Source of the DNA: Anatilimnocola floriformis
GTDB lineage: Bacteria; Planctomycetota; Planctomycetia; Pirellulales; Pirellulaceae
Length of the DNA stretch: 64,000 nucleotides
Assembly (NCBI RefSeq): GCF_024256385.1
Contig: NZ_JAMLFW010000001.1
Location: 1,364,001-1,428,000, forward strand
Direction of reading: 5' to 3'
The position numbers were made by a program, and so were the translations under genes. A model generated the notes under the pieces. It was not told the DNA's origin. It searched no databases and was given only the letters and a program-made list of their open reading frames with translations. Of the stretch, positions 8,873 to 51,479 are shown piece by piece (the first letter of the stretch is position 1; the number at the start of each line of letters is the position of its first letter).

Positions 8873-9994
8873 CTAGTTACTCGCCAGCGCATCACTCTGC
8901 TTCACGAACGCATCGCCGTGCCATTCGGTGTCCTTCGTGACCACACCGCTGGTCTTCGCCTTGGCAGCGGCGCGGGCTTCAGCTTGCCGCTTTACCAGGT
9001 CTGAGTGAGTCGTGAAGTACTGCAGGCTGTGCCCCTTGAAGTCGCTGATCGTTTCAAACTTGTGCTTGTCCATGAAGGCCAGCAAGTCGTCCTTCATCTT
9101 CTTCACGCAGTCGTAACCGACCTTCATCACGCCGGTACAAACCTGCACCGTGTCGGCGCCAAGGAGAATGAACTGGGCTGCATCCGCGCCGGTTTCGATT
9201 CCACCGATGCCGCTCAGGCTGCGATCGGGATAGTGCGCGCGAATCGCTTCGGCGCATTCCTTCACCATCCGCAGCGCGATCGGTTTCACGGCTACACAGC
9301 TATAACCGCCGGGCGTGCTGTACCCTTCCACACACGGTTCAGGCCGTAGCGTGTCGAGATCGACGCTCGTCACGGACAAAATTGTGTTGATCGCGCTTAC
9401 TCCCTGGCAACCGCCGCGGAGAGCTGCGATGGCGGTTTCGTCGATGTGCGTGATATTCGGCGTGAGCTTGGCCCAGACGGGAATTTTCGCGACGCTCATC
9501 ACCCAGCGACAAACTTCTTCCATCAGCGCACAATCCTGGCCCATCGCGGAGCCCATTTTGCGCTCGGGCAATCCGTGCGGGCATGAGAAGTTGAGTTCGA
9601 ACGCAGCCACGCCAGTGGCTTGCACGCGCTCGACGATTTCGCACCAACGGTCCTTGTTGTATTCCTCCATGATCGAAGCAATGACGCAGCCGTCGGGATA
9701 CTTATCTTTCAGGCGTTTGAACTCGTCGATCCAAACGTCGAACGACCTATCAGAAATCAGTTCGATATTCTGCCAACCGATAATTTGACCACTATCGGAT
9801 CGCAGGCGGGCATACCGCGGCTGGACGTTGATGACCTTCGAGGCATCGAGCGAGATCGTCTTGGCGATCACCGCGCCCCAGCCTTCGTCAAACGCTTTGC
9901 CGATGACGTTGCCGTTCGTACCCGGCGGTCCGCTGCCGATCACAAAGGGGTTGGGGAGTTTCAAACCATCGACGGTGGTGGCGAGCGTAGGCAT
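8873..9994 (-). CDS. dihydropyrimidine dehydrogenase, Fe-S-free PreA/PYD1-like
   Basis: This 373-residue FMN-type TIM barrel should reduce uracil and thymine to dihydro forms, the first step of reductive pyrimidine breakdown. Diagnostic segments are VIGSGPPGTNGN, ELNFSCPHGLPERKMGSA, AKLTPNITHIDETA and VQVCTGVMKVGYDCV. The C-terminus (LQYFTTHSDLVKRQ to HGDAFVKQSDALASN) contains no cysteine, so the two [4Fe-4S] motifs of bacterial PreA are absent. From memory the tail resembles plant PYD1. No preT-like partner is in the window. The ATG at 9994 is preferred to a TTG at 10003. The permease gene lies 21 bases upstream on the same strand. Confidence 0.85.
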   Translation of the reverse strand: MPTLATTVDGLKLPNPFVIGSGPPGTNGNVIGKAFDEGWGAVIAKTISLDASKVINVQPRYARLRSDSGQIIGWQNIELISDRSFDVWIDEFKRLKDKYPDGCVIASIMEEYNKDRWCEIVERVQATGVAAFELNFSCPHGLPERKMGSAMGQDCALMEEVCRWVMSVAKIPVWAKLTPNITHIDETAIAALRGGCQGVSAINTILSVTSVDLDTLRPEPCVEGYSTPGGYSCVAVKPIALRMVKECAEAIRAHYPDRSLSGIGGIETGADAAQFILLGADTVQVCTGVMKVGYDCVKKMKDDLLAFMDKHKFETISDFKGHSLQYFTTHSDLVKRQAEARAAAKAKTSGVVTKDTEWHGDAFVKQSDALASN

Positions 9995-10015
9995 GACGAT
10001 CAACGCGCGAGCGCG

Positions 10016-11536
10016 TTACCTCTCTTCAAGATCGGCGGCGACGCTCGGATGACCGAGCATCAGCAGCCAGTACAACACAAAACCAAGCCCAAACGTGACA
10101 AACCAAGCGTATTGATAAATTACCTTGAGAAATTCCGGCGGAGCGATTTTTCCGTGGGTCGCCGCATGCAGAAATCCCGGCAAGCAAGGCGCAATCCCGA
10201 GAACCAACGCGGCAATTGCCCGCCAATTCACACCGCCGGAAAAAGAGTATCTGCCTTTGGGTTCGAAGAGTTCTTTCAAATTCAGTTGCTGTCGTCGCAG
10301 CACCCAGTAATCGCAAATCATGATCCCGCCGATCGCTCCCATCAGGCCGGAGTAACCCACCAGCCACACGCCGATGAAATAATCTCCCATCAACTTCCAC
10401 GGCATCATCAGCATGCCGATGACAGCTGTGATCAGGCCGCCCGTCATATAGCTGATGAGTCGCGGATTGAGATTGGAAAAATCGTTGCTCGGTGAAACCA
10501 CGTTCGCGGCTAGATTGGTCGTCAGCTGCGCGAGAAAGATAATCAGCGTGGCGAAGAGGACGATGGCGATGCTGTTGAACTTCGCCATGAGATCGACGGG
10601 GCTCGGAATCGGATAGCCGTAAATGATGACCGTCGCGCTCGTCACCGCGATGCCGATAAAGGCGAACAGCGTCATCGTCGTCGGCAAGCCAAGTGCCTGG
10701 CCGAGCATCTGTGATTTTTGCGAACGAGCATAGCGCGTAAAGTCGGGAATGTTCGTGGAGAGTGTGGCCCAATAGCCCACCGCACCGGTTAATGACAGCG
10801 GAAAGATCGCCCAGAAGTTGTGTTGCTCTTTTTGCAGCTTCACTGAGCCTTCAAGGACGGGGCCGATGCCACCTGCTTTCCACACGCACCAACCGAGCAG
10901 CGCCAATCCGCCGATGAGCAATAGCGGCGAGCCCCAACTTTCCAGATGCTTGATTTGCTCGAGGCCCGCGATGATGAAATAAACTTCCACGCCCCAAAAC
11001 AGCAGCAGCGCCAGCCAAGTATGCAGCTGCAGACCGATGAGCTCCGTCGTCAGTGTTTTCCAGCCGGGAAACATCATGCCGATGAGGACGTCCATGGCTT
11101 CGCCGCCGATCCAGGTTTGAATGCCGAACCAGCCGCAAGCGACAATGGCCCGCAGCATGGCTGGAACATTCGCGCCGACGGTGCCGAACGACGAACGGAG
11201 CAAAACCGGAAACGACACGCCGTACTTCGTCCCCGCGTGCGCATTGAGGCACATCGGAATCAGCACGATCGTGTTGCCGAGCAGAATAGTGATCAGCGCC
11301 TGCCACCAGGTCATCCCCGCGCTGATCATGCCGCCGGCCAGTTGATAGGTGGTGATGACCACGCTCATGCCGATCCACAGCGCGGCGATGTGCCAGGTGC
11401 TCCAGGTGCGCTGAGCCAGCGTCGTCGGCGCGAGATCGGCGTTCCACAGCGGCGAATGCGAAACGTCTTCGTGCAGTTCGACAAAATCAGCGTGGTGAAT
11501 CGTGGGCGCAGCTGCCGTGGTCGTGGTTGATTTCAT
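10016..11536 (-). CDS. NCS1-family nucleobase/hydantoin permease
   Basis: This 506-residue integral membrane protein has about twelve hydrophobic segments and the NCS1 signature regions, for example LWIGMSVVITTYQLAGG near the N-terminus and CDYWVLRRQQLNL late in the protein. NCS1 members import uracil, cytosine, allantoin or hydantoins. Its place between the dehydrogenase and dihydropyrimidinase genes suggests uptake of uracil, thymine or their dihydro derivatives. The ATG at 11536 (MKSTTTTAAAP) is chosen; the open frame upstream crosses a palindromic repeat. Confidence 0.85.
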   Translation of the reverse strand: MKSTTTTAAAPTIHHADFVELHEDVSHSPLWNADLAPTTLAQRTWSTWHIAALWIGMSVVITTYQLAGGMISAGMTWWQALITILLGNTIVLIPMCLNAHAGTKYGVSFPVLLRSSFGTVGANVPAMLRAIVACGWFGIQTWIGGEAMDVLIGMMFPGWKTLTTELIGLQLHTWLALLLFWGVEVYFIIAGLEQIKHLESWGSPLLLIGGLALLGWCVWKAGGIGPVLEGSVKLQKEQHNFWAIFPLSLTGAVGYWATLSTNIPDFTRYARSQKSQMLGQALGLPTTMTLFAFIGIAVTSATVIIYGYPIPSPVDLMAKFNSIAIVLFATLIIFLAQLTTNLAANVVSPSNDFSNLNPRLISYMTGGLITAVIGMLMMPWKLMGDYFIGVWLVGYSGLMGAIGGIMICDYWVLRRQQLNLKELFEPKGRYSFSGGVNWRAIAALVLGIAPCLPGFLHAATHGKIAPPEFLKVIYQYAWFVTFGLGFVLYWLLMLGHPSVAADLEER

Positions 11537-11591: not shown

Positions 11592-12971
11592 CTACATCTG
11601 AGCGCAAGGGCCACGGCGGATAAACCGACCATCACCGGCCCGCCCCGTGTACTTGCCGTGATCGACAATCACCTTGCCGCGAGAGAGAACAACGTCGGGA
11701 TTTCCCTTGATTTTCCACCCTTCGAACAAGCTGTAGTCGCAATTCATGTGGTGCGTCTTCGCGCTCAGCGTCCTCTCGACGTTCGGATCGAAGAGGACAA
11801 TGTCCGCATCGCTGCCGACAGCGATCGTTCCCTTCTTGGGGAACATGCCGAACATTTTTGCGCTGGCGGTCGAAGTGATTTCGACCCATTTGTTCAAACT
11901 GAAGCCGCGTTTCATCGCGCCGTCGTACACGAGCGACAAACGATCTTCGACGCCGGGCCCGCCGTTGGGGATCTTCGTGAAATCGCCACGGCCTAGTTCT
12001 TTTTGACCTTTGAAATTGAACGGACAATGGTCGGTCGACACTTCCTGCAAATAGCCGAGCTTGAGCCCCTTCCATAGTGGCTCGATGTTTTCGCGGCCGA
12101 CAAGTGGAGGCGTGAAGACGTACTTGGCCCCTTCGAAGTCCGGCTTGTCGTAATACGTCTCATCGAGAAACAAATACTGCGTACAGGTTTCGCCGTACGC
12201 CGGAAAGCCTTCGTCGCGCGAGCGCTGCAGTTCTTTCATCGCCGCTTCGCAGCTCACATGCACGATGAAAACTGGTGCCTTCGCTACTTCGGCCACACGC
12301 ACCGCGCGAGCCACGCCATCGGCTTGCATGCTCGGCGGCCGCGACTGCGCGTGATACTTCGGCTCGACTTTGCCTTCGGCAAGCAGATTGTTAATCAGTT
12401 GCGTGATCGCATCGCCGTTCTCAGCATGCACGAGGGTCATGCCGCCAGCTTCGCCTGCAGACTGCATGACGCGGAACATCGTCTGATCGTCGATCATGAA
12501 GACGCCGGGATACGCCATGAAGAGTTTGAACGTGGTGATGCCGGCGTCGATGATCTTTTTGAATTCGGGTTTGTGCCGGGACTCGTACTCGGTGATGGCC
12601 AGGTGATAGCTATAGTCGATCGCGCACTTTCCTTCGCTCTTGGCATTCCAATCGTCGATCGTCTCGGCGAACGTTTTGCCATGATATTGAATGGCGAAAT
12701 CGATAATCGATGTCGTACCACCAAACGCCGCGGCCCGCGTGCCACTTTCAAAATCATCGCTCGACACGGTGCCGCCAAACGGCAACTGCATGTGAACGTG
12801 CGGATCGATGCTGCCCGGAATGACGAGCTTGCCCGTCGCATCGATCGTCTTATCGGCGGGCACCGGCAAATTCTTGCCGATCATGCTGACCGTTTCGCCG
12901 TCGATCAGCACATCGGCAAAGTAGTCGTCGGTGGCGGTGATGATCCGGCCGTTTTTAATGAGTGTTTTCAT
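11592..12971 (-). CDS. hydA: dihydropyrimidinase (D-hydantoinase family)
   Basis: This 459-residue cytosolic amidohydrolase opens dihydrouracil or dihydrothymine to N-carbamoyl-beta-amino acids, the second step of the pathway. Binuclear metal ligands are visible: HVH in GSIDPHVHMQ, the carbamylated lysine K149 in TTFKLFMAYPG, His in LVHAENGD, His in FIVHVSCEAA and Asp in STDHCPF. Length and motif order fit the family. The permease gene follows downstream on the same strand after a palindromic repeat; the aminotransferase gene lies upstream. Confidence 0.92.
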   Translation of the reverse strand: MKTLIKNGRIITATDDYFADVLIDGETVSMIGKNLPVPADKTIDATGKLVIPGSIDPHVHMQLPFGGTVSSDDFESGTRAAAFGGTTSIIDFAIQYHGKTFAETIDDWNAKSEGKCAIDYSYHLAITEYESRHKPEFKKIIDAGITTFKLFMAYPGVFMIDDQTMFRVMQSAGEAGGMTLVHAENGDAITQLINNLLAEGKVEPKYHAQSRPPSMQADGVARAVRVAEVAKAPVFIVHVSCEAAMKELQRSRDEGFPAYGETCTQYLFLDETYYDKPDFEGAKYVFTPPLVGRENIEPLWKGLKLGYLQEVSTDHCPFNFKGQKELGRGDFTKIPNGGPGVEDRLSLVYDGAMKRGFSLNKWVEITSTASAKMFGMFPKKGTIAVGSDADIVLFDPNVERTLSAKTHHMNCDYSLFEGWKIKGNPDVVLSRGKVIVDHGKYTGRAGDGRFIRRGPCAQM

Positions 12972-13075: not shown

Positions 13076-14365
13076 TCAACCCTTCGCCGCTACGGTCAAA
13101 CCTGCATCGATCGCCTCGACCAGTTCATCCACCTGCGACTTCCCCGCGTTCAGCATCAAACCAGTGCGAATGACGTTGCCATACACGCCGCCCTTGCCGA
13201 GCAGTACGCCCCGCTTCTTGCACTCTTCGAACACCGCGATGACCGCTTGCGGCGCGGGGGTCTTCGTCTTGCGATCCAAAACAAGTTCCAGCGCCTGCAT
13301 CATGCCGAGGCCGCGAGCGTCGCCGATCAGCGGATGCTTTTCCTTCAGCTCTTTGAATCGTTCACCGAGATAAGCGCCGGTGACTTTGCAATTCTCGAGC
13401 AGGTTGTTGTCCTCAATAACGGACAGCGTCGCGCGACAAGCTTCCATCGAAACCGGATTGCCGCCGAACGTCGCGAACGTGATACCGGGGAATTTATCGG
13501 CAACAGCAGGCGTGGCGATGGTCATGGCGACCGGCGCACCGTTGCCCATCCCTTTCGCGCTACACATGATGTCGGGCTTCGCGTTCCAGTGTTCGATGCC
13601 CCACCAGTGCTGACCGGTGCGGCCCCACGCCGTTTGCACTTCGTCGGCGATGAACAGCCCGCCGTACTTTTTCGCGATGGCAGTGGCTCGTTCAAAATAT
13701 CCCGGCGGCGGCACGATGAAACCGCCCGAGCCGATGATCGTCTCGGCCATGAAGGCCGCGATCTCGCCGCAGGTTTCCGTTTGAATCAGCTCTTCGATGT
13801 CGTTCGCACATTCGAGGCTGCAGTTGCTGTTGTCCTTCGCACCGAACGGACAGCGATAACAGTACGGCGCGTGAGCGTGCTTGATCCCCGCGACCGGCAG
13901 CGGAATTTTCTTCCAGCCGCTCTGCCCGCAACCGGCCAGCGTTTGCAAACTGCGGCCCGAATAGCTGTGCCGCAGCGTGATGATGTCGAGCCGGCCGGTC
14001 GCCGTGCGGGCGGCGTTCATCGCCGTTTCGTTGGCTTCGGTACCGCTGCTGGTGAAGAACGTTTTCTTCAAGTCGGCTGGTGCGATCGAGGCCAGCTTTT
14101 CGGCCAGGTTCGACTGCGGCGCGCTTGCATACAGGGTCGACGTGTGGCTTATTTGTTTCACCTGATTGACGATGGCTTCGACCACCTTCGGGTTGGCATG
14201 GCCGACGCTCACCGTCAGCACGCCGCCGAACGCATCGAGGTAACGTTTGCCGGTGCTATCCCAGACGTAGTTCCCTTCACCACGCACGAGCTCAATCGGC
14301 TCCTGGTAGTACATGGCCACGGCGGGAAAGAGAAACTCGCGGTGCTTGCGGACGGCGTCGCTCAT
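13076..14365 (-). CDS. class III omega-amino acid:pyruvate/glyoxylate aminotransferase (AGXT2/PYD4-like)
   Basis: This 429-residue PLP enzyme probably transaminates beta-alanine and 3-aminoisobutyrate to malonate semialdehyde and methylmalonate semialdehyde. The PLP lysine is K271 in CSAKGMGNG, preceded by the conserved IADEVQTAWGRTG. A four-cysteine insert (YCYRCPFG and CSLECA) is present, as in AGXT2-type enzymes. The ATG at 14365 is chosen because the open frame continues for 275 unrelated codons antisense to the dehydrogenase gene. It is divergently transcribed from that gene across a 181-base spacer. Confidence 0.88.
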   Translation of the reverse strand: MSDAVRKHREFLFPAVAMYYQEPIELVRGEGNYVWDSTGKRYLDAFGGVLTVSVGHANPKVVEAIVNQVKQISHTSTLYASAPQSNLAEKLASIAPADLKKTFFTSSGTEANETAMNAARTATGRLDIITLRHSYSGRSLQTLAGCGQSGWKKIPLPVAGIKHAHAPYCYRCPFGAKDNSNCSLECANDIEELIQTETCGEIAAFMAETIIGSGGFIVPPPGYFERATAIAKKYGGLFIADEVQTAWGRTGQHWWGIEHWNAKPDIMCSAKGMGNGAPVAMTIATPAVADKFPGITFATFGGNPVSMEACRATLSVIEDNNLLENCKVTGAYLGERFKELKEKHPLIGDARGLGMMQALELVLDRKTKTPAPQAVIAVFEECKKRGVLLGKGGVYGNVIRTGLMLNAGKSQVDELVEAIDAGLTVAAKG

Positions 14366-14546
14366 AGCGGCTCGCTTCAAAGCGGTCTTAGGAGGCGGCC
14401 GAGAATTTTGTTCGCAAACATCGTCAAGGTGTTCGACCAACACCAGAGGAGAAGTGACGACTGGATTCGCGCGAGCGCCTCCCTGTTGGCGCCACTCCAC
14501 GAGGTTTAACATAACTACAGCCAATTCAAATTTAAAGGGCCTTCTC
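14366..14546. promoter_or_regulatory. divergent promoter region with candidate operator
   Basis: This spacer separates the minus-strand arm (aminotransferase to dehydrogenase) from the plus-strand arm (semialdehyde dehydrogenase and amidohydrolase) of the pyrimidine cluster. At 14428-14444 it contains the palindrome ggtgttcgaccaacacc, six-base arms around a 5-base centre. That form would suit a dimeric repressor or activator. An aaaggg stretch at 14534-14539 is a plausible ribosome binding site for the plus-strand gene. No -35/-10 pair is convincing by eye. Confidence 0.4.
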
Positions 14547-16061
14547 ATGTCAACTGCCGCGCCCCCTGCTGCTCCTCCGACCATCCCCATTCTTTCCGGC
14601 GGCAAGTGGACGCAGTCGAAGTCGACGCGGACCTCCGACGTCTTCAATCCCTCGACGGGACAGGTCATCGCGAAGGTGCCGTTGTGCTCGAAGAGCGAAG
14701 CCGACGATGTGGTAAAAGCAGCCGCCGATGCCGGACCGGCCTGGGCAGCGACACCGGTGGTCGAACGTGCTCGAGTGTTATTCAAATTTCGTGAACTGCT
14801 GATGCAGCGGTTCGATGAAGTCGCGCGGCTGGTGACGCGCGAACATGGCAAGACTTTGGCCGAGGCGCGGGCCAGTGTGCAACGCGGCGTCGAGGTCGTC
14901 GAGTTCGCCTGCGGCATTCCGAGCTTGCTGATGGGACAGACGCTGCCTGATGTCGCGCGCAACGTCGATTGCGAAACAGTGCGCCACCCGCTCGGCGTGT
15001 GCGTCGGCATCACGCCGTTCAATTTTCCCGCCATGGTGCCGATGTGGATGTTTCCCGTCGCCATCTGCTGCGGCAACACGTTTGTCTTGAAGCCGAGCGA
15101 AAAAGTGCCGCTGTCGGCAAATTTCATGGGGGAGCTGCTGACGGAAGCCGGTTTGCCGCCGGGTGTGTTCAACATCGTGCATGGCGACAAAGAAGTCGTC
15201 GATGCGCTGCTGACGCATGAGCTCGTCCGCGCGGTTTCGTTTGTTGGTTCGACAGGTATCGCGAAGTACGTTTATGAAATGGGAACGAAGCACGGCAAAC
15301 GCGTGCAATCGGCCGGCGGCGCCAAGAATCATCTCATCATCATGCCCGACGCCGATCTCGACCAGGCCGTTGCCGCGCTGCAAGCATCGGCCTTCGGCTG
15401 CGCCGGTGAACGTTGCATGGCCGGTTCGATTGCGGTTCCCGTTGGTGACGTTGCGGGCCGGTTTGTCGATCGCCTCTGCGAAAAAGCCAGCAAGATGACA
15501 GTTGGCCCGACTGACACTGGCGCCGAGGTCGACATGGGGCCGCTGATCACGGCAGCCCATCGCGACCGGGTGGCTGGTTATCTCGATGTCGCGCAAAAAG
15601 AAGGAGCGACCGTCGCGCTCGACGGTCGCAAAGATCTGCCGACGAGTGGCTTTTTTGTGCGGCCTTCCGTCGTCGACATGGTTCAGCCCGAGATGCAACT
15701 GGCTCGCGACGAAATATTTGGACCGGTACTTTCCGTCGTCCGCGCGAACTCGCTCGAACAAGCGCTGGCCGTCGGCAAGAAATGTCCCTTCGGCAATGGC
15801 GCGTCGATTTTCACGAATAGTGGTTACGCTGCGCGGCAGTTCAAGCAGCATTTCAATGCCGGCATGATCGGCATCAACGTCGGCGTCCCTGCGCCGATGG
15901 CTTGGTTTCCGTTCACCGGTTGGAATCAATCCTTCTTCGGCGACCTGCATGTACAAGGGCTTGAGGGGATTCAGTTTTATACGCAAGGGAAGACCATCAC
16001 GACGCGGTGGTTTGCGACCGCAGCGGAGTCGCATGCCGATCCGATTTGGCGATCAAAGTGA
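14547..16061 (+). CDS. mmsA: (methyl)malonate-semialdehyde dehydrogenase, CoA-acylating
   Basis: This 504-residue ALDH converts malonate semialdehyde to acetyl-CoA and methylmalonate semialdehyde to propionyl-CoA, ending pyrimidine breakdown; MmsA enzymes also serve valine and inositol catabolism. The catalytic Cys is C290 in AFGCAGERCMAGS. FNFPAMVPMWMFP and GSTGIAKYVYE are typical MmsA segments. The ATG at 14547 (MSTAAPPAAPP) is used; the open frame extends upstream to 14313 through the intergenic region and the opposite gene. The next gene on the strand starts 121 bases on, after a large palindrome. Confidence 0.93.
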   Translation: MSTAAPPAAPPTIPILSGGKWTQSKSTRTSDVFNPSTGQVIAKVPLCSKSEADDVVKAAADAGPAWAATPVVERARVLFKFRELLMQRFDEVARLVTREHGKTLAEARASVQRGVEVVEFACGIPSLLMGQTLPDVARNVDCETVRHPLGVCVGITPFNFPAMVPMWMFPVAICCGNTFVLKPSEKVPLSANFMGELLTEAGLPPGVFNIVHGDKEVVDALLTHELVRAVSFVGSTGIAKYVYEMGTKHGKRVQSAGGAKNHLIIMPDADLDQAVAALQASAFGCAGERCMAGSIAVPVGDVAGRFVDRLCEKASKMTVGPTDTGAEVDMGPLITAAHRDRVAGYLDVAQKEGATVALDGRKDLPTSGFFVRPSVVDMVQPEMQLARDEIFGPVLSVVRANSLEQALAVGKKCPFGNGASIFTNSGYAARQFKQHFNAGMIGINVGVPAPMAWFPFTGWNQSFFGDLHVQGLEGIQFYTQGKTITTRWFATAAESHADPIWRSK

Positions 16062-16182: not shown

Positions 16183-17409
16183 ATGCTCAACCCCGCTCGC
16201 ACCGTCGTTGAACTCAAAGAACTCCGCGCACTGACTGGTGATGAAAACGGCGCGCAGCGCGTGGCATTCACCGAGACTTGGGTCAAAGCGCGAAATTGGT
16301 TTAAAGAGAAGCTGAAGGAATTGCCCGTTGAGGTGCATCAAGATGCAGCGGGTAATCTCTGGGCGACGCTGAAAGGCAAATCGTCGAAGGAATTATTGAT
16401 CGGGGGCCATATCGATTCGGTGCCGAACGGCGGTTGGCTCGATGGTTGTTTGAATGTCGTCGCCGGACTCGAAGTGCTGCGGCGGATTGCTGCCGAAGGC
16501 GTGCCGCCGGTGACGATTCGCCTGGTCGATTGGTGCGATGAAGAAGGAGCGAGATTCGGCCGCAGCTTGTTCGGCTCTAGTGCAGCGAGTGGTGCTCTCG
16601 TGCCCGATGACGTTCGCAATCTAACCGATCGGCAAGGTGTGAAGCTCGTCGATGCGGTCGCGCCGCATGGCATCGATCTCGATCGCGCGCTCGATGCCCA
16701 ACAGGAACTGAAGAACGCCGCCGCTTATCTGGAACTCCACATCGAACAAGGTCCGGTCCTTGAAAGCCTCGACCTGCCGATGGGCGTCGTCCTTGGCACG
16801 TTCGGCGTCGAGCGGCACACCATTACCTTCAAGGGCCAGGCCGCGCACTCCGGTTCCACGCCGATGACGCATCGGCGCGATGCGCTCGGTGGCGTTTCGA
16901 AACTGCATCTGGCGATTCGTGAGATTGCCATCGAGCACGGCGGCGTGTGTACGGTCGGCAAAGTAACCACCGAACCAGGCATCGTGACGGCCGTTGTCGG
17001 CGAAGCGACGATGACGCTCGATCAGCGGCATCTGGATGCGGCTGCGCTTGAAAAGATGTATGTCGCAGCCAAGGCAGCCAGCGAGCGAATCGCCCAGGAT
17101 GAGAAAATCGAAGTCAACTGGAAAACACTGTGGCGGATTCAGCCGTTTCCGTTTCATCCTCGCTTGATTGAGCTGTGCGACGCGGCGATCCAAGAAACTT
17201 GCGGCACGGTCCATCGCCTGCCGAGCGGGCCGCTGCACGATGCTGCGGAAGTCTGCCGCGCCGGCGTGCCGACGATCATGCTCTTCGTGCAAAGCCTTCG
17301 CGGCATCAGCCACAACAAAATCGAAGACACCCGCGAAGAGCATCTCGAACTATCGGTCGCGGCCCTCGACCGGCTGGCAACGAAAACGATCGCCTGGCTC
17401 AGCCAGTGA
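16183..17409 (+). CDS. M20 Zn-dependent N-carbamoyl-beta-alanine amidohydrolase (beta-ureidopropionase-type)
   Basis: This 408-residue binuclear-metal amidohydrolase of the hydantoinase/carbamoylase M20 family should release beta-alanine or 3-aminoisobutyrate, ammonia and CO2 from the dihydropyrimidinase product. Metal ligands are H76 in GGHIDSV, D87 in WLDG, the acidic pair in CDEEGARF, His in LHIEQGP and His in GISHNKIEDT. AHSGSTPMTHRRDA is the dimerisation-domain signature. It completes the pathway of the flanking genes. The start codon directly abuts a large inverted repeat, so translation could be structure-controlled. Confidence 0.9.
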   Translation: MLNPARTVVELKELRALTGDENGAQRVAFTETWVKARNWFKEKLKELPVEVHQDAAGNLWATLKGKSSKELLIGGHIDSVPNGGWLDGCLNVVAGLEVLRRIAAEGVPPVTIRLVDWCDEEGARFGRSLFGSSAASGALVPDDVRNLTDRQGVKLVDAVAPHGIDLDRALDAQQELKNAAAYLELHIEQGPVLESLDLPMGVVLGTFGVERHTITFKGQAAHSGSTPMTHRRDALGGVSKLHLAIREIAIEHGGVCTVGKVTTEPGIVTAVVGEATMTLDQRHLDAAALEKMYVAAKAASERIAQDEKIEVNWKTLWRIQPFPFHPRLIELCDAAIQETCGTVHRLPSGPLHDAAEVCRAGVPTIMLFVQSLRGISHNKIEDTREEHLELSVAALDRLATKTIAWLSQ

Positions 17410-17537: not shown

Positions 17538-19070
17538 ATGTCGGTCGTCACAGCATTTCAATCTGATTTGCGTTTACGCATCTCGCTCCAATTGCTGCTG
17601 GCCGTGTTCTTCGCCAGCGAGTTCGGAGTTAAATTCGCGGTCGCCCAAGTTGCTGATCCGTTTGTTCCAGCACCGGCAGCTCCTTCTGCTGCGGCGCTGC
17701 GCGCTTTGAATCCGCCGCCTGTGTGGCGAGGAAAAATCCCGCGGACTAAACCAGCGTTGGAAGTAAAGTCTCTGGATTTAAGTGACTCCGATTTCAGGGA
17801 CCTATGGGAGCTCGCTGACTTTCCCAATCTGACAGACCTGTACTTGCGGAAGGCAGAGTTGCAGAGTCTCGCAGGAATTGAGCAATTCAAGCACTTAAGG
17901 CACCTCGTCATCGACGAGACCGCCATTGAGGACATTGGGCCTCTCCGCGCTTGCCGAGAACTGCAATCACTCCACATGCAAAAGTGTCCGGTTCGTGACC
18001 TTTCTGTTCTCTCCGGGCTGAAGCTGACGTTTCTCGACATTGACAACTCCGATGCTGTAGAACTGCCGACGATCGAAACTCTTGGAGCAATCTCATTTAA
18101 TAACACGAAAGTTGCTGATCTTACGCCAGTGTCAATGTCCACGAACTTGACGATGGTCACTGGAAAAAATTCGCGAGTGTCTGACCTTTCGCCACTGTCG
18201 AAGTGCACCAAGATCGATTGGCTGGATCTAGGATCTACGTCGGTTTCCGACATCTCTCCAGCGGCCAATTTTCGCAATCTGAAGCATTTGTATCTAGAAC
18301 ATACGCCCGTGGGGAGTTTGGATCCGCTCACAAAAACCACCAAGCTGACCGACGTCGATATTTCCGCGACAAAAGTAGTCGACTTGACGCCGTTGGCGGG
18401 GCATCGCTCACTGCGAATATTCGTGATGAACGATACGGGCATCAGTGACCTCACGCCGCTCAAAAACTGCAAAGGAATGTCGTTGTTCAACTGTAGCCGA
18501 ACAGCTGTTTCTGACATTTCTGTCTTCGCGAATTTTCGCAGTTTGAGGCTCTTTCGTTTTGAGGGCAAAGACCGCGAGAAACCTCCCACCATCAGCTTAA
18601 AACCACTTTCTTCCTGTACGTACCTCACTGAACTCCAGCTCTGTAAGGCCGTGGTCTATGACACGGAGCCGCTCGCGAAATGCGAGTATTTGAGGAGTCT
18701 GGGTTTCGAAGACGTCCCTATTAAGAACCTGGTTCCCCTGGCCAAACTGCAGCGTCTGGTAACACTGCGCATCAAGAATGGCGAGGTTGCGAACCTGACG
18801 CCTCTCGAATCGTGCTCTCAATTGTCTACATTGGAAATCGACAGAATTCCGGTCACGGATCTGTCTCCGTTACTGCGGATGAAACTGTTGAAGAGTTTGA
18901 AGATTTGCAATATTCCCGTCGAGCAACCGTTTTACAAAGAGCTGAAGGCTCAGGTTGCAGCCGTATATTTACTCGGGGCTGCTCAGAAATGGGACGTACG
19001 GGGTCGCCTGCCGCAAGATGCTGACGACCTCACTTTGCCCCTTTCAAATGCGCGGATACCTCTGCCGTAA
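17538..19070 (+). CDS. exported leucine-rich repeat protein
   Basis: This 510-residue protein has an N-terminal hydrophobic signal (ISLQLLLAVFFASE) ending near VAQVADP. A proline/alanine-rich stretch precedes many ~22-residue leucine-rich repeats of the internalin/SDS22 type, each reading like L..L.L..T.V.DLTPL. The curved repeat array spans about 75-480. Such domains bind proteins; the partner is unknown. A strong ribosome site (cggagg) lies seven bases before the ATG. It is less GC-rich than its neighbours, which might hint at acquisition, but I did not compute this. Confidence 0.8.
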   Translation: MSVVTAFQSDLRLRISLQLLLAVFFASEFGVKFAVAQVADPFVPAPAAPSAAALRALNPPPVWRGKIPRTKPALEVKSLDLSDSDFRDLWELADFPNLTDLYLRKAELQSLAGIEQFKHLRHLVIDETAIEDIGPLRACRELQSLHMQKCPVRDLSVLSGLKLTFLDIDNSDAVELPTIETLGAISFNNTKVADLTPVSMSTNLTMVTGKNSRVSDLSPLSKCTKIDWLDLGSTSVSDISPAANFRNLKHLYLEHTPVGSLDPLTKTTKLTDVDISATKVVDLTPLAGHRSLRIFVMNDTGISDLTPLKNCKGMSLFNCSRTAVSDISVFANFRSLRLFRFEGKDREKPPTISLKPLSSCTYLTELQLCKAVVYDTEPLAKCEYLRSLGFEDVPIKNLVPLAKLQRLVTLRIKNGEVANLTPLESCSQLSTLEIDRIPVTDLSPLLRMKLLKSLKICNIPVEQPFYKELKAQVAAVYLLGAAQKWDVRGRLPQDADDLTLPLSNARIPLP

Positions 19071-19215: not shown

Positions 19216-21252
19216 ATGATGATTCGTGTTTGCCTGCCGCTGCTGCTGATCATGGGCCTGACGACCTTGGCGCCGGCCGCCGCGCCACATCCACTTACTC
19301 CGCTCACTGCAGACGAAATCACGCAAGCCGTGGCCATCATCCGCCGCGAACAGCAACCGGCTGGTGATTTTCGTTTTCCCGTGCTCAATCTCCACGAGCC
19401 AACGAAGGATGAGTTGCAGCGCTTCGCCACTGGTGAAAAAGTGCCGCGGCGTGTCTTTGCTGTCGTGCTCGACCGAAACACGCAACGCAGCTTCGAAGCC
19501 ACCGTCGATCTGACCTCGCAGAAGCTCGTTCAATGGAACGCCCTGCCGAATGTTCATCCGCTGGTGCTGTCGGCCGAATACATCGAGGTTGCCGACATCG
19601 TGCGGGCTGATCCGCAATGGCTGGCGGCGATGAAGAAGCGGGGCATCGATACGGAGAAGGAAATTGAAGAGGTCAATCTCGATTGTTGGGCGCCGGGCGT
19701 GCTTGAGGTGAAGGGCTCCGAAGGGGCTCGGCTGATGCGGGTGATTTCGTTTCAGCGGGCCGGCGGGATTAATGCCTATGGCCGACCGATCGAGGGCGTT
19801 GTCGTTGCCGTCGACATCGACAAAAAGAAGGTCGTCCAGTTCATCGACACCGGCGTCGTGCCGATCTCGGCAGATGGCGGCACCGATTTTTTTCAGGAGG
19901 AAGAAGTCAGCGAACGGCCACAACCGAAGCGGCTTGTTGTTTCTCAGCCAGACGGAGTCGACTTCACCGTGAATGGCAACGAAGTTCGTTGGCAGAAGTG
20001 GCGATTCCGTTTTCAGATGCACGCCCGCGAAGGGCTCGTGCTGCACACGGTTGGTTATGAAGACGGACTCGACGAACAGCGGCAACCGAAAGTTCGCTCG
20101 ATACTGCATCGCGCATCGATTGCCGAAATGGTCGTTCCGTATGGCGACGCATCGGCAGCCTGGAACTGGCGAAGTGCCTTCGATCAGGGAGAGTATGGCC
20201 TGGGGAAGACTTGCAATCGTTTGAGTAAAGGGCACGATGTGCCGGCCAACGCCCAGCTATTCGACGCGGTGTTTGCCGATGATTTGGGCAAGCCGGACGT
20301 CAGAGAGCGCGCGGTCGCCATCTACGAGCAGGATGGCGGCATTTTGTGGAAGCACTACGACGAGACTTCGAGCAAGGTCGAAACGCGTCGGGCGCGACAG
20401 CTGGCCGTCACCTCGGTCACCACCGTTGGCAACTACGACTATTGTGTGAACTGGATCTTTCATCAGGATGGCACCCTCGAAGCCCGCGTCGATCTCACGG
20501 GTATCTTGCTGGCGAAGGGTGTCACGCCGCAGTTGTGTGAAAAATGTGCAGCCGCTGCGGCGGGCAAGATCGCGGTGGCGACAGGCGATCAGAGATATGG
20601 CACGCTGGTGAGCAAGAGCATCGTTGCGCCGAATCATCAGCACATTTTTAGCTTCCGCCTCGATTTCGATGTTGATGGCCGCGAAAACAGCGTGGTGGAG
20701 ACCAGCGTGAAGCCGGCGCCGGTAGGCGAAGCAAATCCAGCGAGCAACGCCTTCATCCATATCGAAACGCCGCTGAAAACCGAAGCGATAGCACGGCGCG
20801 ATCTCAACTTACTGGAACATCGCCGCTGGAAAATCTTTAACAGCAGCAAGCCGAATTCGCTTGGCCATTTCGCCGGCTATCTGCTCGAACCGGGCGCGAA
20901 CTGCGTTCCCAAGGTCAGCGAGAAATCCACCACGGGGCAGCGGGCCGGCTACATCAATCATCACTTCTGGGCGACTCGTCACAAGGACAATGAATTGCAC
21001 TCAGCCGGCGACTATCCTCGCCAGCGCGGAACCAGCGACGGCTTGCCGCTGTGGAGCGGCGACGAATCGCTCGAGCAGCAGGATGTGGTAGCGTGGTACA
21101 CAATGACCGTCACGCACGTGCCGCGGGCCGAGGAATGGCCTGTGATGTCGGCCACGCGGGCCGGGTTCTCGCTCGTGCCGAGCGGGTTCTTCACTCGCAA
21201 TCCGGCGCTCGATGTCCCTGCCGAAACCGCGCCGCGGGCTGCGGAAGAATAG
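19216..21252 (+). CDS. secreted copper amine oxidase (primary-amine oxidase)
   Basis: This 678-residue topaquinone enzyme has a signal peptide ending near APAAAP. It oxidises primary amines to aldehydes with release of ammonia and hydrogen peroxide. The cofactor tyrosine is Y407 in VGNYDYCVNW, the catalytic base is D323 in AFDQGEYG, and copper ligands are H474 and H476 in NHQHIF and H634 in VTHVPRAEEW. Length is typical. The substrate (tyramine, phenethylamine or another amine) cannot be told from sequence. It is followed 87 bases later by the PQQ-type propeller gene. Confidence 0.92.
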   Translation: MMIRVCLPLLLIMGLTTLAPAAAPHPLTPLTADEITQAVAIIRREQQPAGDFRFPVLNLHEPTKDELQRFATGEKVPRRVFAVVLDRNTQRSFEATVDLTSQKLVQWNALPNVHPLVLSAEYIEVADIVRADPQWLAAMKKRGIDTEKEIEEVNLDCWAPGVLEVKGSEGARLMRVISFQRAGGINAYGRPIEGVVVAVDIDKKKVVQFIDTGVVPISADGGTDFFQEEEVSERPQPKRLVVSQPDGVDFTVNGNEVRWQKWRFRFQMHAREGLVLHTVGYEDGLDEQRQPKVRSILHRASIAEMVVPYGDASAAWNWRSAFDQGEYGLGKTCNRLSKGHDVPANAQLFDAVFADDLGKPDVRERAVAIYEQDGGILWKHYDETSSKVETRRARQLAVTSVTTVGNYDYCVNWIFHQDGTLEARVDLTGILLAKGVTPQLCEKCAAAAAGKIAVATGDQRYGTLVSKSIVAPNHQHIFSFRLDFDVDGRENSVVETSVKPAPVGEANPASNAFIHIETPLKTEAIARRDLNLLEHRRWKIFNSSKPNSLGHFAGYLLEPGANCVPKVSEKSTTGQRAGYINHHFWATRHKDNELHSAGDYPRQRGTSDGLPLWSGDESLEQQDVVAWYTMTVTHVPRAEEWPVMSATRAGFSLVPSGFFTRNPALDVPAETAPRAAEE

Positions 21253-48186: not shown

Positions 48187-50400
48187 ATGGCTGTTGAATA
48201 TTCCTGGCCGAGCAAAGAGAAGGCTACGCAGATCGGCAAGCGGCACACGCGGCTCGATGGTTTGGAGAAATCGACCGGCGCGGCTAAGTACACGTACGAC
48301 ATCAACTTGAAGAATCAGTTGATCGCCCGCGCGCTCGGCTGCCCGCACGCTCACTGCAAGATCAAGTCGATCGACACCACGGCTGCCCAAGCCGTCAAGG
48401 GTGTCGTTCATATCGAACCGCTCCGCAAAGTGGACGATGAAATCGAATGGCAGGGAGAAATGATCCTGGTCGTCGCCGCCGAAAGCGAAGCGGCCGCTGC
48501 CGAAGGGTGCGAGAAGGTCAAAATCGAATACGAGATGCTGCCGTCGTTTACCAGCGAAGAAGATATCGCTGCCGCCAAAGCCGCCAAACGAACGATCAAG
48601 GGGGGCGGCAAAGCCGTGACGGTGAAAGAGCCCGGCGATGATGACGATGAAGACGAATTCGTCACCAAGGAGATCGAACGGCTGCTGAAAGAAGCGGCTT
48701 ATACCGTCGATGGTTACTACGGCATCGACGCGATCACTCACAGCTGCCTCGAGCCACACGGTTCGACGGTGGAGTGGCAAGGCAACAAGTTGATGGTGCA
48801 TCTGTCGACACAAAACGTCAGCGGCACGGACGAAGGTTTTGCCAAGGACCTCAACATCACGTCGGACGACGTCGAGGTGCACTGCGATTTCATCGGCGGC
48901 GGCTTTGGCAGCAAGTTTGCTCCTGATTATTGGGGCATCGCCGCCGCTCGCATCAGCAAAGCGACCGGCCGGCCGGTGAAGTTCATGCTCACGCGTGCGC
49001 AGGAACAACAACTCGGCGGCAATCGTCCCAGCGGCTACATGAAGGTGAAGCTCGGCGCCAACAAGGATGGGATCATCACGGTTTGGGATTCGGAACATTG
49101 GGGCAGCGCCGGCGCGATTCCGGGCGGCGTGAGCCACACGGTTGTGCCGTACGTCTTCACGCCGCCGAACTATCGCCGGCTGCAGACCAATCTGAAGACC
49201 AACACCGCGCAGTCGCGAGCCTGGCGGGCGCCGAATCATCCTCAAGCCAGCGCGATGACTCAAACGGCGATCGACGATCTCGCTGCCAAGATGCAGGCCA
49301 ACAGCCTCGACGTCTTCCTGAAGAATCTCGGCACCGACGAGAAGCCACTCATCAGCGGCGCGAAACCTTCGGTCTACAAAGCCGAAATCGAACTCGCCGC
49401 CAAATTGATGGACTGGAATGCCAAGTGGCATCCGCACGGCAAAGGTGACAAGAAGGGTTCGATCGTCGAAGGCCTGGGGATGGCGCTGCACACCTGGGGC
49501 GGCGGCGCGAATAGCTCGAACTGCCTGCTGAAGATTTATCCCGACGGCGGCGTCGAGACGACTTGCGGTACGCAGGATCTGGGCGTTGGCACGCGCACTG
49601 TGCTCGCGGTTGTTCTCGCCGAAACGTTTGGTTTGACGCCTGACAAGATCAAGGTCAATATCGGTTCGTCGCGAATGCCAGTGAGTGGACCATCGGGTGG
49701 CAGCACCACGGTCGGCGGCATTTGCGAATCGCATCGCCGCGCGGGGCAGGATGCGTTTGCCTCGATCGCCGAACTCGTCGGCAAGAAGCTGGGCGTCGAT
49801 CCCACGAAGCTGGAAGCCGTTGGTGGCCGTGTGCAAGTCATCGGCGATGCTTCAAAGGGTGTGTCTTGGAAGGAAGCCTGCACGCTGATCGGCATGCGAC
49901 CGCTGGAAGTGAACGGCTCCTATAAAAGTGGCGTCGACAGCCCGCTGAGCAGCAAGCAGGTCGGCGGTGTGCAGATGGCGCATGTGGCCATCGATCGCGA
50001 CACCGGCATCATCAAGATGCGGAAGTTCGTCGCGGTGCAAGACATCGGTCTGGTGGTTTGCCGTCAGCAGGCCGAGAGCCAGGTTTACGGCGCGGTGATC
50101 ATGGGGATTGCCGCGGCGCTATTCGAGCAGCGGATCACCGATCCCAAGACGGGCTCGTTCGTCAACGCCGAGTTGTCGAACTATAAGCTCGCCCGCCTCG
50201 GCGACATTGGCGAAGTCGTGGTCGAGTTCTACGAACCCGAATCGGAACGAAGTCGCGGCGTGATCGGCATCGGCGAACCGCCCGCCATTTCGCCGATTGC
50301 AGCCATCAGCAATGCGGTATGCAACGCCCTCGGCGTGCGCGTGCCGGTCGTGCCACTCACGCCGCAGCGCGTCTTGGCCGCACTCAAAGCCAAGGCCTAA
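48187..50400 (+). CDS. XDH-family molybdopterin-binding large subunit
   Basis: This 737-residue subunit is the molybdenum hydroxylase catalytic chain (xanthine/aldehyde oxidase family). The Moco-binding segments FIGGGFGSKFAPDYW and GGSTTVGGICESH and the catalytic glutamate E697 in GIGEPPAISP are present. An acidic insert (GDDDDEDEFVTKE) near residue 155 is unusual. It has no own signal peptide and presumably rides with the Tat-bearing small subunit. The substrate (a purine, aldehyde or N-heterocycle) cannot be told. Confidence 0.92.
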   Translation: MAVEYSWPSKEKATQIGKRHTRLDGLEKSTGAAKYTYDINLKNQLIARALGCPHAHCKIKSIDTTAAQAVKGVVHIEPLRKVDDEIEWQGEMILVVAAESEAAAAEGCEKVKIEYEMLPSFTSEEDIAAAKAAKRTIKGGGKAVTVKEPGDDDDEDEFVTKEIERLLKEAAYTVDGYYGIDAITHSCLEPHGSTVEWQGNKLMVHLSTQNVSGTDEGFAKDLNITSDDVEVHCDFIGGGFGSKFAPDYWGIAAARISKATGRPVKFMLTRAQEQQLGGNRPSGYMKVKLGANKDGIITVWDSEHWGSAGAIPGGVSHTVVPYVFTPPNYRRLQTNLKTNTAQSRAWRAPNHPQASAMTQTAIDDLAAKMQANSLDVFLKNLGTDEKPLISGAKPSVYKAEIELAAKLMDWNAKWHPHGKGDKKGSIVEGLGMALHTWGGGANSSNCLLKIYPDGGVETTCGTQDLGVGTRTVLAVVLAETFGLTPDKIKVNIGSSRMPVSGPSGGSTTVGGICESHRRAGQDAFASIAELVGKKLGVDPTKLEAVGGRVQVIGDASKGVSWKEACTLIGMRPLEVNGSYKSGVDSPLSSKQVGGVQMAHVAIDRDTGIIKMRKFVAVQDIGLVVCRQQAESQVYGAVIMGIAAALFEQRITDPKTGSFVNAELSNYKLARLGDIGEVVVEFYEPESERSRGVIGIGEPPAISPIAAISNAVCNALGVRVPVVPLTPQRVLAALKAKA

Positions 50401-50489
50401 CTGTTTAGATCATCGCCCCCGGCCCTGTGCTGGGTTCACCGGTTTTTGCACTACTCCGCAAACCTGCAAACAAACTACGAGTCAAAACC

Positions 50490-51479
50490 ATGAAAAACTT
50501 CGAATACGCCGCCCCTCGCAGCGAAGCCGAGGTGCTAACGCTCCTCCACTCACGGTCGGGTCACACCGAAATCCTCGCCGGCGGCACGGACCTCGTCGGT
50601 CTGATGCAGGCCAACATTGTGCGGCCCGAGCGCGTCGTCAATATTCTGGAAGTTCCCTCGCTGCAGACCATCGAGCAACTCGACAACGGCGTACTCGCCG
50701 TCGGTTCGACCGTCACGCTCGATGTGCTGCTCGATCATCCTTATCTCACGCCTTACCCGGCCCTCCGGCAAGCGATCGAGGGGATCGCCAGCATGCAGTT
50801 GCAGTGTCAAGGAACGCTCGGCGGCGAAGTGCTGCAGCGGCCGCAGTGCTGGTTCTTCCGCAGTGGCCGCGGCTTGCTCGCAGGCGGCGGCAAACTGCCG
50901 ACCGAAGGCGACAACCGCTTTCACGCAATCTTCGGCAACCATGGCCCGGCGAAGTTTGTGAGCACTTCGCGCCTCGCGCCGGCCCTCGTCGCACTGAATG
51001 CTCAAGTGCGAGTCATTGGTCCTGGCGAGACGGACGAAAATTTCGTTTCGGTCGAATCCCTGTTCCGCACACCACGACACGAAGCCGAGCGCGAGCACAC
51101 GCTGCTGCCGAATCAGTTGCTGACTCACCTGATGATTCCGGCTGCGACGGGCTTCAATGCCACGTACGAAGTTCGCCACGGCGCGGGGCCTGATTATCCG
51201 CTGGCTTCCGCAGCTGCCGCGCTCGAAATCGAAGGGGGCGTGGTTCGCGAGGCTCGCATCGTTCTCGGTCACGTCGCGCCGACACCCTGGTTGTCGCACG
51301 AAGCAGCCGCGGCGATCGTCGGCCAACCTGTGAACGAAGAAACAGGCGCGGCTGCCGGCGCTGCAGCCATCGTCAGCGCTTCGCCGCTATCGAACAACGA
51401 CTACAAAGTGCAACTCGCTCAGGTCGCCGTCAAGCGCGCGATCTTGCGAGCGGCGGGGCAGGAAACCGGCGGCTTCTAA
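50490..51479 (+). CDS. XDH-like FAD-binding subunit M
   Basis: This 329-residue subunit binds FAD and passes electrons on to an acceptor. The FAD motif ILAGGTDLVGLMQANI and the segment QGTLGGEVLQRPQCWFFRSG are visible. The second FAD motif reads TLGGE, where TLGGN or TIGGN is usual. The YagS-type [4Fe-4S] cysteines after QRPRC are missing except for the first. The ATG at 50490 is used; the upstream frame has no support. It is third in the operon, 89 bases after the large subunit. Confidence 0.85.
   Translation: MKNFEYAAPRSEAEVLTLLHSRSGHTEILAGGTDLVGLMQANIVRPERVVNILEVPSLQTIEQLDNGVLAVGSTVTLDVLLDHPYLTPYPALRQAIEGIASMQLQCQGTLGGEVLQRPQCWFFRSGRGLLAGGGKLPTEGDNRFHAIFGNHGPAKFVSTSRLAPALVALNAQVRVIGPGETDENFVSVESLFRTPRHEAEREHTLLPNQLLTHLMIPAATGFNATYEVRHGAGPDYPLASAAAALEIEGGVVREARIVLGHVAPTPWLSHEAAAAIVGQPVNEETGAAAGAAAIVSASPLSNNDYKVQLAQVAVKRAILRAAGQETGGF

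Follow-up and report, generated by a model that had tools for sequence, protein, structure and literature searches.

Predicted Fe-S-free dihydropyrimidine dehydrogenases form a deep bacterial clade and are encoded in uracil-catabolism clusters of Planctomycetota and neighboring phyla

How does a dihydropyrimidine dehydrogenase (DPD) receive electrons when it has no Fe-S domain and no reductase is encoded beside it? This question is raised by a planctomycete gene located within a 64,000-nucleotide stretch of DNA (referred to here as the window). For the first step of plant uracil breakdown, the known electron-entry sites of the enzyme are all missing, the rice enzyme was inactive, and a partner was not found (PMC2713857, PMC9930899). 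As described below, the window protein belongs to a large bacterial family that has the same architecture and is encoded in complete, simple operons with no candidate partner, which makes the plant electron-supply question answerable in bacteria.

The gene and its product

The reading frame of the DPD gene (Table 1) has an alternative start codon, TTG at 10003 (8873-10003, minus strand), that would give a product of 376 residues. Pfam analysis of the window protein revealed DHO_dh alone, with no Fer4 domain found, and Fer4 was visible in the control proteins L083 and L112. The NCBIfam PreA model NF006183 matched the protein with 394 bits over model positions 3-331 of 422, the match ending where the Fe-S domain of PreA starts; this model would give the name PreA to type-B proteins, our designation for the Fe-S-free, window-like enzymes. 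The closest solved structure was that of pig DPD (1GT8), over its FMN/uracil domain (residues 534-853, E 3e-64), and a predicted structure (mean pLDDT 83.5), for which 49 members of the family were used, had pig DPD chains as its 39 top PDB matches, with dihydroorotate dehydrogenases ranking behind. Seven residues of the pig enzyme (N609, E611, N668, C671, K709, N736, and T737) were identical in the window protein and in 46 of 46 type-B alignment rows. The equivalent of C671, Cys138, is invariant in the type-B alignment, and Glu611 distinguishes DPD from PyrD, which has Gly at that position. On the basis of its sequence, we conclude that the window protein is a DPD with every catalytic and substrate residue examined intact.

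At the C terminus, in place of the two [4Fe-4S] clusters of PreA and animal DPD, the window protein has a tail of about 50 residues with no cysteine. Cysteine was absent from this tail in all 110 type-B relatives, and tail positions F327, H330, L333, V334, D355, and W358 were invariant among 49 aligned members; the feature is thus due neither to chance nor to a truncated gene. The tail motif listed in Table 1 is common to the type-B clade, and no catalytic residue is known in this strongly conserved segment. Outside the tail, K53, E110, and R217 are specific to the clade. These findings bear out the preliminary description of the window, which had assigned the gene to a planctomycete, its product to the DPDs, and its cysteine-less tail to an Fe-S-free enzyme; the tail motifs that it named were found as written.

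Several characterized enzymes share the catalytic domain of the window protein and differ elsewhere. Escherichia coli PreA (b2147; PreTA/PydA2) matches the window protein in FMN domain and active site (42% identity across 320 residues) but possesses two C-terminal [4Fe-4S] clusters and is encoded alongside PreT, neither of which accompanies the window protein. Mammalian DPD, whose pig representative has Cys671 and all of the examined substrate residues in common with it, differs in having an N-terminal FAD/NADPH domain and Fe-S domains. Clostridial PydAc (PMC7332683) is similarly a DPD without FAD/NADPH domains that is encoded in a uracil cluster; however, it keeps Fdx domains ([4Fe-4S]) and needs their clusters, whereas the window protein has no Fdx domain. 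PyrD of classes 1A and 1B has the same TIM-barrel FMN fold and is also Fe-S-free, but Gly replaces the DPD-specific Glu.

Table 1. Features of the DPD gene and of the genes surrounding it in the window.
Feature	Position	Strand	Remarks
Fe-S-free, FMN-only DPD (predicted)	8873..9994	-	373 aa from ATG 9994
Cysteine-free C-terminal tail, residues 323-373, replacing 2x[4Fe-4S] domain	8876..9028	-	SLxYFTTHxxLVxRQ...DxxWxGDxFVxQSxxL
Codon of catalytic Cys138 (pig DPD C671), within NFSCPHG	9581..9583	-	Cys in 46/46 type-B rows
NCS1-family nucleobase:cation symporter	10016..11536	-	Start probable; ORF open to 11668
Dihydropyrimidinase (PYD2 role)	11592..12971	-	TIGR02033, 586 bits vs cut-off 393
Class III aminotransferase, probable beta-alanine/beta-aminoisobutyrate transaminase	13076..14440	-	Start approximate; recurs in related operons
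Methylmalonate-semialdehyde dehydrogenase (MMSDH)	14547..16061	+	TIGR01722, 624 bits vs cut-off 448
M20 amidase, hydantoinase/carbamoylase family, probable beta-ureidopropionase (PYD3 role)	16183..17409	+	TIGR01879; matches yeast beta-alanine synthase
FtsH-like ORF (recognized by reading the sequence) and small protein			Opposite side of DPD gene

The surrounding gene cluster

The DPD gene sits in a predicted complete cluster for reductive uracil catabolism (Table 1), in which the MMSDH and M20 amidase genes are divergent from those for DPD, the permease, dihydropyrimidinase, and the aminotransferase. The closest solved relative of the permease is Mhp1, an NCS1 hydantoin permease. Uracil taken up by the NCS1 symporter would be reduced to dihydrouracil and then converted through carbamoyl-beta-alanine and beta-alanine to a semialdehyde and finally an acyl-CoA; the reduction of uracil by the window protein is putative, being deduced from the operon context. 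Related type-B loci are dominated by genes for dihydropyrimidinase, the aminotransferase, MMSDH, ureidopropionase, and an NCS1 or NCS2 permease, and in some of them a nitrilase-type (animal-type) enzyme substitutes for the M20-type beta-ureidopropionase. A yeast-type cytosine deaminase is encoded in or near the uracil cluster at L028, L038, L047, L048, L054, L056, L062, L067, L080, and L082.

Close to the pyrimidine cluster, the window also encodes an LRR protein (17538-19070) followed by a copper amine oxidase (19216-21252, plus strand). Farther along, at 48187-51479 (plus strand), lie the MoCo and FAD subunits of a molybdopterin-dependent dehydrogenase of the xanthine dehydrogenase/CO dehydrogenase family.

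Distribution and phylogeny of the Fe-S-free enzymes

DPD matches above the curated cut-off were present in 41 of 294 planctomycete genomes and comprised three types. Type A, the classic PreA with two clusters, was found in 14 genomes (split in one of them), type B in 21 of the 41, making it the commonest, and type C, a shorter Fe-S form with a layout resembling the ferredoxin-dependent clostridial kind, in 6. Type B was also detected in Verrucomicrobiota (6 of 195 genomes) and Sumerlaeota (6 of 40), where an identity gap separates it (58-75%) from type A (at most 47%). A scan for relatives using one genome per species found 93, of which 80 were kept, and all of these were from Planctomycetota, Verrucomicrobiota, or Sumerlaeota except for one MAG named Magnetospirillum; altogether, the same three phyla account for nearly all of about 110 type-B loci, among them those of Haloferula sp. 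BvORR071 (L058) and Adhaeretor mobilis (L008). The exceptional locus (L021, JANQAI010000005.1, Magnetospirillum sp.) was rejected as a proteobacterial type B, as its contig is collinear with that of the Opitutaceae locus L018 at 71-81% DNA identity across the uracil cluster and flanking genes, one of which is cysteine-desulfurase-like. The contig is probably verrucomicrobial, with either the organism name wrong or the contig misbinned. No type B was found in viruses, phages, or plasmids; the phage and plasmid matches were all below 60% identity, and those on plasmids were mostly annotated as PreA.

In trees that included PreA, type C, pig DPD, and PyrD, type B formed a single clade with 100/100 support outside the PreA group, and PyrD formed a separate group, also with 100/100 support. 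We conclude that type B is a deep bacterial DPD clade that, as predicted from its members, has no C-terminal [4Fe-4S] domain. The comparison of an ancient loss of this domain with its never having been gained in the type-B ancestor did not separate the two (AU p 0.31). A different reading takes the window protein to be an ordinary PreA whose Fe-S domain was lost recently and which is now decaying or without function; recent domain loss within PreA was the other opposing case of the preliminary description. This reading would suit the above-cut-off match to the NCBIfam PreA model, but it is contradicted by the tree and by 110 loci, spread over at least three phyla, at which the active site is intact and the replacement tail conserved. 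We regard such decay as extremely improbable.

A description of an Fe-S-free bacterial DPD clade was not found in the literature searched. The one published survey of bacterial DPDs found there demanded a [4Fe-4S] domain, which accounts for the absence of type B from it (PMC7332683). Fe-S-free DPD is already known from plants.

The six type-C proteins (L112-L117, from G012, G062, G099, G272, G123, and G222) have about 394 residues and a divergent Fe-S tail. They group with pig DPD (94/82, on long branches), their genes have no adjacent PreT and often adjoin that for dihydropyrimidinase, and they may be ferredoxin-dependent like clostridial PydAc.

Search for an electron-donating partner

A PreT gene adjoined that for PreA in 13 of 13 type-A genomes, whereas true PreT was found in none of the 21 type-B planctomycete genomes; at the level of individual loci, the corresponding values were 13 of 13 PreA loci and 0 of 82 type-B loci. 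The contig of the window has no PreT-like gene, and the sole sizeable PreT match in that genome was a GltD-like protein on a different contig (30% identity, 89 bits). The preliminary description had stated that no FAD/Fe-S partner gene is nearby and had treated an always co-conserved PreT elsewhere in the genome as the opposing case; the first statement holds for the window and the 82 loci, and the opposing case is not seen in the 21 genomes. The tested type-B genomes being without PreT, the automatic PreA label misleads for this clade.

PyrK, GltD, flavodoxin, and [2Fe-2S] ferredoxin were each rejected as a universal partner, as each is missing from some type-B genomes. No GltD-like or PreT match at all was obtained in G118, G149, and G178, and only matches below 30 bits in several others of the 21 and in 5 of 16 further type-B genomes reached via named loci. 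PyrK was not found in type-B genomes G005, G198, and G242 (93-99% complete), and flavodoxin was present in 6 of 27 type-B genomes and missing in the other 21. Proteins with the Fer2 domain ([2Fe-2S]) were detected in 26 of the 27, with none in G297; in G242 (99% complete) the match lies only inside a 611-aa frame.

A hidden operon partner was likewise rejected. When the ORFs of the 82 loci were clustered, they yielded pathway genes, cytosine deaminase, a small DUF protein, and lineage-specific neighbors; apart from cytosine deaminase and the small DUF protein, no non-pathway gene occurred in more than four of the loci, and neither a recurring redox gene nor a recurring ferredoxin gene was found. 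Open frames of 650-826 aa were considered as possible reductase fusions, but Pfam showed DHO_dh alone plus a weak, overlapping Dus match, and GC-rich sequence that happens to stay open probably accounts for their additional length.

In five genomes a PreT/GltD-like gene adjoins a PyrK-like gene (G016:C102, G131:C173, G161:C37, G012:C12, and G253:C209). These pairs are arranged as in the NfnAB/SudAB ferredoxin:NADP oxidoreductases.

Possible sources of electrons

We consider it likely that the window protein is an FMN-only uracil/thymine reductase that opens the reductive pyrimidine pathway independently of PreT, its FMN being reduced by a general donor. We infer that such a donor would reduce the FMN directly, bypassing the FAD/Fe-S chain. 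NAD(P)H is our first choice for this role, though a tentative one: it would bind at the FMN site and follow a ping-pong cycle similar to that of the NADPH-dependent FMN-only dihydrouridine synthases. Those enzymes are related FMN-only barrels that reduce the uracil ring in tRNA by using NADPH and a catalytic cysteine, and their example is the reason that we favor the ping-pong cycle; the Dus profile matches weakly in the long type-B frames. The main counter-evidence comes from purified rice DHPD, a truncated and tagged protein, which was inactive with both NADH and NADPH and so argues against direct use of these nucleotides (PMC9930899). In addition, clostridial PydAc without reconstituted clusters lost its activity even with methyl viologen (PMC7332683), which raises the possibility that the FMN of the DPD fold is poorly accessible.

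Our second choice, almost as likely as NAD(P)H though still somewhat doubtful, is ferredoxin or another small diffusible carrier. Reduced ferredoxin, supplied by FNR or another ferredoxin-reducing enzyme, would dock on the protein, perhaps via the conserved tail, and reduce the FMN directly. A ferredoxin-dependent DPD is known in Clostridium (PMC7332683), and the plastidial location of plant PYD1 (PMC2713857) suits such a donor. The strong conservation of a tail with no known catalytic residue and the near-universal occurrence of Fer2-domain proteins in the type-B genomes also agree with ferredoxin docking. Against this reading, the electrons of the clostridial enzyme enter through its own Fe-S domains, which type B does not have, a ferredoxin gene never recurs in the type-B operons, and G297 and G242 are exceptions to the Fer2 distribution, a survey that covers the [2Fe-2S] type alone. 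A dedicated but unlinked reductase, equivalent to PreT, GltD, or PyrK, encoded elsewhere in the genome and required for activity, appears unlikely. To our knowledge, all well-studied aerobic DPDs use a dedicated reductase. A missing partner has also been postulated for plants (PMC2713857, PMC9930899). Nevertheless, the gaps in the distribution of PreT (21 of 21 genomes), GltD-like proteins, and PyrK and the failure to find a recurring redox gene in the 82 loci speak against one. All of the results would be equally compatible with a widespread housekeeping reductase, or with a [4Fe-4S] ferredoxin, encoded at some other place in the genome.

The need for a donor would disappear if the protein ran the opposite reaction and oxidized dihydrouracil with O2, in the manner of fungal relatives of class I DHOD. 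Fe-S-free enzymes of this kind exist in fungi (PMC9585004), and the NCS1 carriers include Mhp1, the hydantoin permease closest to that of the window among solved structures. The fungal enzymes, however, are class IA DHOD-like, whereas the window protein is DPD-like and has E611, and the type-B operons encode enzymes that consume dihydrouracil as well as two suppliers of uracil, cytosine deaminase and NCS2 permeases. We therefore judge an oxidase role to be highly improbable, and a reductase served by a general donor remains the preferred reading.

Relation to plant PYD1

Plant DPDs have about 400 residues and keep the FMN and uracil sites, their Fe-S, FAD, and NADPH sites are missing, and a partner was not found (PMC9930899, PMC2713857). 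The window protein, being short and FMN-only with no Fe-S, FAD, or NADPH sites, fits this published description and thus shares its architecture with plant PYD1/OsDHPD (At3g17810; rice DQ102485). The plant protein differs in having a plastid transit peptide and in being nuclear-encoded and outside an operon.

For sequence comparison, the Arabidopsis PYD1 used was a provisional sequence that came from no database record and was set down with knowledge of the window protein, so that contamination is possible; it was partly verified. Five of seven residue numbers given in PMC2713857 fit one offset and the other two are one residue off, and the provisional sequence is 42% identical to E. coli PreA (published 41.5%) and 38% identical to pig DPD (published 37.2%). 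No match to peptides of the provisional plant sequence was found in the literature. With its tail included, the provisional PYD1 shows 62% identity to the window protein and 66-68% to members of the Phycisphaerales, beside which it nests within type B (96/89). A tree holding all bacterial type-B proteins together, with the provisional PYD1 outside, came close to being rejected (AU p 0.056); rejection was clear for one that placed it outside the inner bacterial subclade (p 0.005).

Two parts of the preliminary description are therefore only partly sustained. The term plant-type is correct for the architecture as published (PMC9930899), and the relevance to where the plant enzyme came from is partly shown; common ancestry with PYD1, the likeness of the tails, and the nesting of PYD1 in the type-B clade all rest on the provisional sequence. 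A bacterial origin of the plant PYD1 gene is accordingly a lead drawn from that sequence, and type B turns it into a concrete, checkable hypothesis. More speculatively, and in our estimate with less than an even chance, a third mode of powering DPD (FMN-only, with direct reduction by a diffusible carrier or NAD(P)H and no FAD subunit or Fe-S relay) may have arisen in Planctomycetota and their neighbors, the chloroplast enzyme having been acquired together with this chemistry from a Phycisphaerae-like bacterium.

Among the Phycisphaerales type-B proteins (L013, L061, L067, and similar ones), the DHO_dh match is interrupted beyond about residue 252 by a short insertion whose length varies.
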